DNA of 32,053 bases from Flavobacteriales bacterium (GTDB lineage: Bacteria > Bacteroidota > Bacteroidia > Flavobacteriales_D > Sanyastnellaceae), in NCBI GenBank assembly GCA_020437755.1, contig JAGQVX010000027.1, positions 1 through 32,053 of the forward strand. Direction: 5' to 3'. This document shows positions 15,467 through 21,849 of the stretch, one piece after another. The position numbers and the translations under genes are program-made. Numbering within the stretch: position 1 is the stretch's first letter; each line of letters opens with the position of its first letter. The notes under the pieces were generated by a model. It did no database searches. It was not told the DNA's origin and saw only the letters and a program-made list of their open reading frames with translations.

Positions 15467-15536
15467 TTGAATTCCCAATCGTCCTGATGACGAACAATTG
15501 CAATTCTTCGGGGTTGTAAGAGACGAAACCCAGACC

Positions 15537-18107
15537 ATGCCAAGACTGATCCGCATACTCACCATGCTATCTCTTTCCCTTTGGGGAGTGCAGTCTTTCG
15601 GGCAATATATTCAGGGTAAAATCACGGATGAAAACAAGAAATATTTGGCGTATGCCAGCATATACGTCAAAAACTCGACAAAAGGAGTCTCAGCCGACCA
15701 GCGCGGATTCTACTTCATGGAATTGCCTGCCGGAACGTACACTATAGTTTTCAGCTTCATAGGCTACACCAATCAGGAATACGAGGTGGTGATTAGCAGC
15801 GGGAAACCCGTGAAGCTCGACGTACAGATGTTTCCTGAAACCAGCACCTTATATGCTGCCGAGGTTGTAGCCGATACGCGCGACCGAGGAGAGGAAATCA
15901 TGAAAAACGTACGCGACAAGCGCAAATACTATTTCGATCGGGTTGGGGAATATGCGTGCGAAACGTACATGAAAACATCCCTGGAAAAGGAATTGATGCG
16001 ACCGTCGAAAAAAGATACCATTCATGAGGAGGGCGACACCACAGAAGTTGTGAAACGTGGCATCAACGGGCACTTCAAGCGTGAAAAACTGAACCTCATC
16101 GAAACGGTGAGCACCACTTATTTTCGATCTCCCGGAAGGTATAAAGAAGTGGTATCAGCGCATCATGACTACGCCGAACGTCCGGGAAGCGGCGAGCCCG
16201 GAAGGTCGATTCACATGGGATCGGGTATGGATGATTTTGGGTCTAAGAACATTGCTCCGGTCTCTCATGCAAGCGACAATCCGTACATCTTGTTTGAAGA
16301 TTTCTCCAAGGCCGATTTGAACTTTTATCAAAACCTCATTGAATTCTCCGCTGTCAGTCAAAAGCCCCTGCTCTCCCCTATTGCCCTCAATAGCGGACTG
16401 AGTTACCGATTTGACTATAAAGGATCATTTATCGAGGACAACCGCAGGATTTACGAAATTGACGTGACACCGCTTTTCAAGTCGGGCGCTTTGTTTGAAG
16501 GGAAAATCTTCGTGGAAGACAGCACATGGGCACTGGTAACGGTAGACCTTCAAATCAACCGAGATGTATTGTTGTACTGCAATGAATTCAGGGTAATTCA
16601 AAACTACTCGCATTACGAAAATGACCAACTGGTACCGATAAGGCGGGAACTCACGTACACCATCAAAGATGGTAAGTATGATATCTTGGGCAACACACGC
16701 GTTGAACACCACAACTACGACTTCCATCCCGAGATAGAACGCGGATTTTTCAATGCCGAAGTCAAGCAATACACTGATGATGCATTCGACAAAGATTCAG
16801 CGTATTAGGCAGAACGCCGCCCCATTGTGCTCAAGGAAAATGAGTTGAAGTTTATCACCGAAAGCGATAGCATTTCCGCCTACTACGCCAGTGATGAGTA
16901 TTATGCAAAAGTGGATTCGGCATTCAACCGTCTCGATTGGTGGACTCCATTAATTGGCTACGGCCGCAAGAACAGCAAGCGAGGCACCGAGTTTTATCTG
17001 GAAGGAGTTTTAAGTCAGATTAACCCTGTTGGAATAGGCGGCTATCGGCACCGGCTCCCCGGGTATTTCAACAAGAAATTTGACAACGACTTTCTCCTGG
17101 AAAGTGAAGGTTTTGTGGATTATGGATTTCGCAACAAGGACGTGAAGGGAAAGGCAGGTATCGGGCTGACCTATGTACCGGAAAAGTTTGTCAGAACTTT
17201 TATACGTGCCGGTGAGTATTACGATCGCATCAACAACTACGCTTCTATCGAACAAACCTTCAGTCGGTCGAATTTTGCCCGAACCCGAATGATGAGCATT
17301 GCCCAACGCATGGAAATCGTGAACGGTTTGTTTGCCGAACTCTCCTTTGAATACTCGAAGCAATCGCCCATAACCGATATACAACTGGCGCCATGGTCCG
17401 ACGACTTGTTTGGCGGTTTGAACACTCCAGTTGAATTTGAACCCTATGTGAAAAGCGAGTTGCGACTGGACGTGAAGTATCGCATTGGTCAGAAGTATGT
17501 CAAACGCGGAAGAGAGAAGATTATATTGGGTACCGATTACCCTGAAATCAATCTGGTATACCGCAAGGGAATTCCCGGATTATTCAACAGTGAAGTGAAC
17601 TTTGACTACTTTGAAATCAGTGCCAAGGACCATTGGGAGATCGGTCAGTTTGGTTACTCCAAGTGGCAACTTTCATTTGGTACTTTCCTGAATAAAAACA
17701 ACTTACGTGTGCTGGAATGGAAGTACTTCCGGGGATCCGACCGGTACTATTTTTCAGATCCTGTAAGTTCGTTCCAATTGTTGGGACCAACAATGAGCAC
17801 TCCCAACGAATACCTCAGTGCCAATTATGTGCACCATTTTGAGGGCGCTATTCTGGGAAAAATCCCGGTGGTACGGTGGTTGAAATTGGGATTGGCAGGA
17901 GGTGCCGGAGCCTTATCCATTCCCGATAATGGGTTCTACCACTTTGAAGCCTACGCCGGACTCGAACGCAATATTCGGATCAAAAAGCAGCTTTTTCGAG
18001 TAGGTGTTTACGCCGTTACCTCTGACAATACCCTGGAAAGCACTAACTACAACTGGAAGTTTGGGCTTAATTTCTACAACACCTTCACCAAGAAGTGGGA
18101 ATACTGA
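15537..18107 (+). pseudogene. DUF5686 outer-membrane protein gene split by an in-frame TAG
   Basis: Two open stretches, 15537-16808 and 16809-18107, lie in the same frame, separated only by TAG at 16806-16808. Read through, they give about 855 residues. In order these are a signal peptide (MPRLIRILTMLSLSLWGVQS, cut near FGQ), a carboxypeptidase-like regulatory beta domain (IQGKITDENKKYLAYASIYV, about 25-110), a DUF5686 middle part, and a C-terminal beta-barrel of DUF5686 type ending in an aromatic strand (NFYNTFTKKWEY). The break is at DSAY-stop-AERRPIVL. The family has a tryptophan-containing junction before its RP-x-L motif here, so TGG to TAG by one base is the simplest explanation. No other frame damage is seen. 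A TTG at 15498 is not used. The function of the family is unknown; an outer-membrane location is inferred. It may be a very recent pseudogene or a sequencing error. Confidence 0.8.
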
Positions 18108-20663: not shown

Positions 20664-20672
20664 CCCCTTTAC

Positions 20673-20698
20673 ATCGTACAGAACATTTCGTACCTTTC
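20673..20698 (+). promoter_or_regulatory. marR promoter with candidate operator
   Basis: TACCTTTC at 20691-20698 is one base from TAnnTTTG and ends 4 nt before the ATG, so the mRNA may be leaderless. Just upstream, 20673-20686 reads ATCGTACAGAACAT, which recurs with one change (C to T) at 21190-21203 in the dps promoter. Here it lies between the -33 and -7 positions, where bound repressor would block polymerase. Confidence 0.5.
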
Positions 20699-20702
20699 GG
20701 TT

Positions 20703-21125
20703 ATGAACACGCTCGAATTATACGGACTGATTCGCCGATTGAACCGAATTGCTGATCTGGACTCCCGGAAATTGGTAACGCGAAGCGGTCTGAGTATTCC
20801 GCAGTGGCTGGCGTTGGACTTTCTGTCAAAACAATCCGATTGCATTTGCACCCAACTTGAACTGAGGAAGGCATTAAATCTAAACTCTTCGACCGTTACC
20901 GGTATCGTTTCGCGTCTGGAAAGCAAAGGGGCTGTTGTTAAGCTACCTGTAACCGGAGACAAGCGCAATGTTCGACTAGCTCTCACACAACTCGGGCTTG
21001 ACAAGATATCGCGGGAACAACTCAGCGACTGGTCGGAACTGGAGAACCGACTTGGATCCATGACTTTGGAGCAAAAAACCGACTTTCAGCAAAAACTAAT
21101 CGAAATTGTACATTTTCTTGAGTAA
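20703..21125 (+). CDS. MarR-family transcriptional regulator
   Basis: A 140-residue winged-helix protein with typical MarR layout: N-terminal dimer helix (LYGLIRRLNRIADL), helix-turn-helix (LRKALNLNSSTVTGIVSRLESKGAV), wing with the conserved DKRNVRLALT, and a C-terminal dimer helix. Two cysteines, C47 and C49 (DCIC), stand just before the helix-turn-helix, a position from which oxidation or metal binding could change DNA binding. MarR proteins usually repress themselves and a neighbouring gene. The next gene encodes Dps, and a nearly identical 14-bp sequence is present in both promoters. The inducer is unknown; a redox signal is an inference from the cysteines and from Dps. Confidence 0.9.
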   Translation: MNTLELYGLIRRLNRIADLDSRKLVTRSGLSIPQWLALDFLSKQSDCICTQLELRKALNLNSSTVTGIVSRLESKGAVVKLPVTGDKRNVRLALTQLGLDKISREQLSDWSELENRLGSMTLEQKTDFQQKLIEIVHFLE

Positions 21126-21157
21126 AGAATCCCTTTTTGCTCCATTTAGGCCAGTTT

Positions 21158-21217
21158 TTGGCAGTTTAATCTACTTATTGTATATTTGTATCGTATAGAA
21201 CATGAATTCACATGTTC
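21158..21217 (+). promoter_or_regulatory. dps promoter with shared motif and palindrome
   Basis: TTG at 21158-21160, a 20-nt spacer and TATATTTG at 21181-21188 form a strong Bacteroidota promoter. Right after it, 21190-21203 reads ATCGTATAGAACAT, the motif also found before marR. Overlapping its 3' end is a perfect dyad, GAACATG, 6 nt, CATGTTC (21198-21217). Both lie around the expected transcription start, a usual place for a repressor. Confidence 0.6.
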
Positions 21218-21262
21218 AGGAACTGGTTTCACCCTTATCTTTCAGTTCCTCCTTCGAAATCA

Positions 21263-21278
21263 CATTTGGCGAATGCCA
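21263..21278. repeat. CATTTGGC-GAAT-GCCA short dyad, copy in dps leader
   Basis: Sixteen bases in the dps leader that match 15 of 16 bases of the sequence at 21874-21889 just after the dps stop. A 14-base core also occurs, inverted, at 9675-9688. TGGC and GCCA can pair across four bases. Confidence 0.4.
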
Positions 21279-21351
21279 CTTTACACACCGTGCGCCCTGC
21301 ACGTTGATGATGATTTTGAGCACCTCATTATTAACCCCTAAAAACACATTT

Positions 21352-21849
21352 ATGACACTAGCAGTTGAAAAGAAAAGAAACCACAAAAAACTCGGCTTCG
21401 ACCATATTGAAGCCGCCGAGATGATCGTAAAACTCGATCAGTTGCTCATCAACTTGGATAGCTTCAATAAAAAATTGCAGCAGTTTCACTGGACCGTAAT
21501 TGGGCCCGACTTTTTCGAGTTGCATGACGCATTCGAGTCGCTATACAAGAAAACCGATGAACACATTGATGAGGTGGCCGAACGCATTCGCGTTTTTGGA
21601 CACTACCCCACTTCCGATTTTAGCAATCCCAATCGCACATCCAGCATACTAATACCCGAAAAGGGACTGAGTTCGGAATTCATGATGCGGGAAGTGGTGC
21701 AGGACATTGAAACTTTACTGGGATTCCTGATTGAAGTGGCCAATGCTGCCTCCAATAATGGCGATGTTGGAACCGTGACGCTCATGGGGAATTATCTACT
21801 TTTTTACGAAAAAATGCACTGGCAGTATCGCTCATGGTTGCGAAAGTAA
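21352..21849 (+). CDS. dps: Dps-type ferritin-like DNA-protecting protein
   Basis: A four-helix protein of 165 residues that oxidises Fe(II) with peroxide, stores iron in a 12-mer shell, and may bind DNA. The four ferroxidase ligands are all present with standard spacing: H46 (QQFHW), H58 (ELHD), D73 and E77 (DEVAER). The usual ends of the family (GTVTLMGNYLLFYEKMHWQYRSW) are also seen. ATG 21352 is preferred because homology begins here and the preceding bases are A-rich, as usual for starts in this phylum. The frame stays open to ATG 21202, which lies 13 nt after the -7 box and would add 50 residues of unusual sequence. It is downstream of marR but has its own promoter. Confidence 0.9.
   Translation: MTLAVEKKRNHKKLGFDHIEAAEMIVKLDQLLINLDSFNKKLQQFHWTVIGPDFFELHDAFESLYKKTDEHIDEVAERIRVFGHYPTSDFSNPNRTSSILIPEKGLSSEFMMREVVQDIETLLGFLIEVANAASNNGDVGTVTLMGNYLLFYEKMHWQYRSWLRK

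Follow-up and report, generated by a model that had tools for sequence, protein, structure and literature searches.

Positions 20673-21217 of the window (the whole stretch of DNA that was analysed, 32,053 nucleotides) raise the question of whether a MarR-type regulator controls both its own gene and the neighbouring dps gene, and by what signal such control would be relieved. This interval takes in the whole marR gene as well as two short motifs, which a first-pass annotation had proposed as the shared sites of a redox or iron circuit. The two motifs, ATCGTACAGAACAT (20673-20686) and ATCGTATAGAACAT (21190-21203), were confirmed in the sequence and differ by a single base in 14.

The marR and dps genes and their promoters

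The features of the locus, all on the forward strand, were as follows.

20668..20671, + strand: TTTA, a -33-like element of the marR promoter read in the sequence, a weak consensus match with a 19-nt spacer to the -7-like element
20672..20685, + strand: predicted marR operator CATCGTACAGAACA in the quasi-palindrome register (20673-20686 being the motif as annotated before), seen in the sequence and kept upstream of marR in the genomes G247, G831 and G891
20691..20698, + strand: -7-like element TACCTTTC of marR, from the sequence and the TAnnTTTG rule (PMC9723704)
20703..21125, + strand: marR, 140-aa MarR-family regulator (PF01047, 42.5 bits, cut-off 24.6)
21157..21160, + strand: TTTG, a -33-like element of the dps promoter read in the sequence, 20 nt ahead of the -7 box
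21181..21188, + strand: perfect -7 box TATATTTG of the dps promoter, from the sequence and conserved in the intergenic alignment
21189..21202, + strand: predicted dps operator TATCGTATAGAACA, lying over the predicted start at ~21193, from the sequence, the relatives and the intergenic alignment
21193..21351, + strand: predicted untranslated dps leader, deduced from the promoter position and the Dps start
21352..21849, + strand: dps, 165-aa ferritin-like DNA-protection protein (PF00210, 56.3 bits, cut-off 24.5)

The MarR winged helix-turn-helix domain was recognised by PF01047 (E 6.1e-11) and PF12802 (E 1.4e-09), both over cut-off. None of the named MarR equivalogs of NCBIfam exceeded its curated cut-off, the best being HpaR at 33.5 bits against 121.2, and the OhrR model gave 26.6 bits against a cut-off of 200. 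The Dps protein matched PF00210 with an E value of 4.3e-15 and the ferroxidase signature FHW...LH..FE..Y....D..AER was read in its sequence; no Dps equivalog of NCBIfam was above its cut-off.

In Flavobacterium psychrophilum the element TAnnTTTG covers -12 to -5 (PMC9723704), and by this rule the marR start was predicted at ~20703, about at its ATG, so that the marR mRNA may be leaderless. The same rule puts the dps start at ~21193, inside the dps copy of the motif, which begins directly after the -7 box. Both placements made in the first-pass annotation were borne out: one copy is flanked by the -33 and -7 elements of marR and the other is at the expected transcription start of dps. The marR copy was the poorest palindrome match among the operators compared.

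An ATG at 21202, inside the motif, was considered as the Dps coding start and dropped by comparison with relatives, which makes 21352 most likely the start. The frame 21202-21351 is open from this operator ATG through to dps, which would make Dps 50 residues longer, an extension without support from relatives. Positions 21198-21217 hold a perfect 7-bp inverted repeat (GAACATG/CATGTTC, 6-nt loop) starting within the dps operator, which could fold into a hairpin at the mRNA 5' end or serve as a further half-site; an Rfam search of the region gave no match. A second, distant dps gene is present in the window genome (G000:C222:25310-25762, - strand, 28% identity). Elsewhere in the window, two neighbouring ORFs sharing a frame (15498-16808 and 16827-18107) match the DUF5686 profile at 89-263 and 272-669, and with successive parts of the profile found in two same-frame ORFs, one gene has apparently been split by an in-frame stop.

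Recurrence and specificity of the motif

A 13/14 match was reached in 4 of 1500 dinucleotide shuffles of both intergenic stretches (39 and 226 nt), or ~0.003 per promoter pair, and the analytic chance value was 0.0018; the earlier estimate of ~0.001 for one promoter pair agrees with both. Since a window holds many promoter pairs, across which the chance rises to a few percent, the match by itself was suggestive and not decisive. The window genome (3.78 Mb, 303 contigs) contained no further site at 0-1 mismatch to the 14-mer, and 46 sites at two mismatches compared with 28 for a reversed control pattern. Coincidence is nevertheless an explanation to which we give almost no weight, as it is already contradicted by sequence conservation, the motif recurring at equivalent promoter positions of three other marR-dps loci and of two more marR loci.

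Relatives were sought by genome searches (1,789 overlapping genome look-ups in total), in which close relatives of the window MarR were few. Most relatives in the window's own family were without this MarR, and a contig scan with the MarR protein returned one distant proteobacterial protein only. Three other loci, all belonging to a different family of the window's order, had marR followed by a same-direction transcript with dps, bringing the known marR-dps pairs to four, two of them within one genus. The gene orders of the three were as follows.

G247: marR, 94-aa ORF, dps
G831: marR, RRM protein, dps
G891: marR, RRM protein, PRC-barrel protein, 93-aa ORF, dps

The sequences upstream of marR in G247, G831 and G891 were GGTTGTACAGAACA, TGTTTTACAGAACA and TGTCGTATAAAACA, and those in the next promoter, directly after TATATTTG, were TGTTGTGTACAACA, TGTTGTATAGAACA and TGTTGTGTAGAACA. 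Conservation beside orthologous marR-dps pairs, the check named in the first-pass annotation, was thus found at both promoters in all three of the other pairs. G1032 has no dps pair; its marR precedes two small genes of unknown function, whose promoter carries the 14-mer inverted, TGTTCTATACGACA, with its start in the final two bases of the -7 box. In G071, which belongs to another family of the class, TGTTGTATCGAACA occupies the corresponding place of the promoter, before a gene assigned as a BCCT-type transporter from reading its sequence. The operator consensus from all loci was the quasi-palindrome TGTYGTRYAGAACA.

An alignment of six downstream promoters contained one well-conserved block, made up of the -7 box and the operator. 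This combined pattern, scanned at up to 3 mismatches, matched the marR-adjacent promoter in the window genome (G000), G247, G831 and G891 along with one 3-mismatch site in G247, and was absent elsewhere in the window genome; its reversed control gave 0 or 1 match per genome and strand. The bare operator at one mismatch was overall no commoner than its control, and among 30 loci examined a TAnnTTTG box directly adjoining it was found only at marR-adjacent loci. The 26 dps upstream regions for which no such marR was found reached 11/14 motif matches at best. No strong site was located near the second MarR copy that G831 and G891 each have. The palindrome TTTTCTATAGAAAA near paralogous MarRs was rejected as their operator because in G831 it falls inside the reading frame of the next gene, the sites at other paralogs being judged equivalent by likeness only.

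The five operator-bearing MarRs of the order grouped together to the same side of one branch (support 78/98; 0 of 500 shuffles). A caveat is that the smaller tree, without far outgroups, was chosen after the first, since the mixture-model tree that included them was unresolved. The window MarR formed a long branch, and the four marR-linked Dps proteins were not united in the Dps tree.

Several neighbouring genes also recurred. Small proteins of 93-101 aa encoded beside marR (L029 964-1248, - strand; L103 4158-4439, - strand; L105 5385-5672 and 5676-5981, + strand) look alike and possibly make up an unnamed family; two that were scanned had no match in Pfam. In G891 and G831 the operator is followed first by a gene for an 88-aa protein with a single RRM (L103 5293-5559, - strand; L104 4669-4935, + strand), and an MscS-like gene is located near marR in the same two genomes.

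Putative repression and its relief

The sites are positioned on core promoter elements, are conserved and are linked to marR. The predicted operator is dyad-symmetric and overlaps the core promoter, as seen in its sequence, position and conservation, and this arrangement fits steric repression by a MarR dimer. Such a dimer would bind the quasi-palindromic operator; at the marR promoter, binding between the -33 and -7 elements would block RNA polymerase and give negative autoregulation, while at the dps promoter, where the operator adjoins the -7 box and lies over the start, binding would block initiation. A ligand or stress signal would free the dimer, and MarR and Dps would then be made together. 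We infer that MarR is the binder and the repressor and that a stress signal provides the relief. In our estimation the probability is about 0.8 that marR and dps form a self-regulating cassette of this kind, in which a MarR dimer represses both promoters until a signal relieves it. That distant relatives keep the arrangement makes a self-regulating stress switch very probably real, and the shared operator, autoregulation and control of dps proposed earlier gain support, as putative binding, from conservation at the marR-dps pairs. Membership of the MarR family and a local autoregulated repressor are of a known kind; judged from sequence, the marR-dps system is a well-supported prediction and its redox trigger is unsupported.

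It is very unlikely that the motif is instead the site of another regulator governing both genes. While dps is under OxyR in Bacteroides fragilis (PMC6158253), the motif tracks marR rather than dps, being missing from dps promoters that have no such marR and present at MarR loci that have no dps (G1032 and G071). Thiol-based MarR regulators exist, and the only cysteines of the window MarR, C47 and C49, form the CxC pair to which relief by oxidation or metal had been attributed. Relatives do have cysteines near this loop (C44 and C49 in G891 and G831, and C44 in G247, which also has C28 and C93); however, the pair was in none of the relatives examined and G1032 keeps the operator with a MarR free of cysteine. 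OhrR-type proteins have a reactive cysteine near the N terminus, which is absent from the window MarR. A CxC redox switch was ruled out as a shared feature by this comparison, and a thiol or metal switch sensing through C47 and C49 is improbable. The iron circuit has as its sole basis that Dps is a ferritin-like protein.

Further genes that relatives place under the operator (RRM, PRC-barrel, small unknown proteins and one BCCT-type transporter) suggest a broader stress cassette. Related MarRs adjoin SSS or BCCT-type transporter genes, the G071 operator stands before a BCCT-type gene and the MscS-like genes near marR in G831 and G891 are of the same tenor. CosR and EctR1, MarR-type repressors of osmolyte genes, are relieved by salinity (PMC7876524). 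Given these transporter neighbours and this precedent, a signal of osmotic or general stress is no less plausible than a redox one. It is still a doubtful proposal that the window MarR acts as CosR and EctR1 do, as no osmolyte gene was seen next to the window marR and inferring a signal from neighbour genes is weak.

For the self-regulating cassette, a wider reading can be offered tentatively, at slightly below even odds. These proteins may be an undescribed Bacteroidota MarR group with its own operator abutting the -7 box, governing a patchily inherited stress cassette in which the targets (dps, RRM, PRC-barrel, small proteins of the unnamed family and perhaps an osmolyte transporter) are swapped between species and the regulator and promoter-operator unit are kept. 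The locus also illustrates how a promoter unit, made up of -7 box and operator, is retained while the regulated genes change. Because the regulator, the operator and the target are all recognisable in the sequence of four species, spread over two families, a specific circuit is directly testable.

Comparison with known systems

In a search mainly of freely accessible papers, none was found that describes a MarR regulator of dps in Bacteroidota, and little was found on dps control in Bacteroidota outside Bacteroides. The OxyR-dps system of Bacteroides fragilis is likewise transcriptional control of dps in this phylum, although OxyR is a LysR-type peroxide sensor whereas the candidate regulator here is MarR-type and adjacent. 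BmoR of the same species (PMC6158253), likened by description, is also MarR-type with an inverted repeat in its target promoter, but the repeat there includes TTTCC, thiol/disulfide genes are its targets, and in that species OxyR controls dps. CosR and EctR1 (PMC7876524), compared by description and not by sequence, are likewise MarR-type and repress stress genes, in some cases BCCT transporters, a target that the G071 relative may share, and they differ from the window system in their osmolyte targets. The autoregulated MarR-family repressors MarR, OhrR and EstR are alike in family, gene arrangement, a dyad operator on the core promoter and presumed autoregulation, while the system described here has dps as its target, another operator sequence and a host from another phylum.
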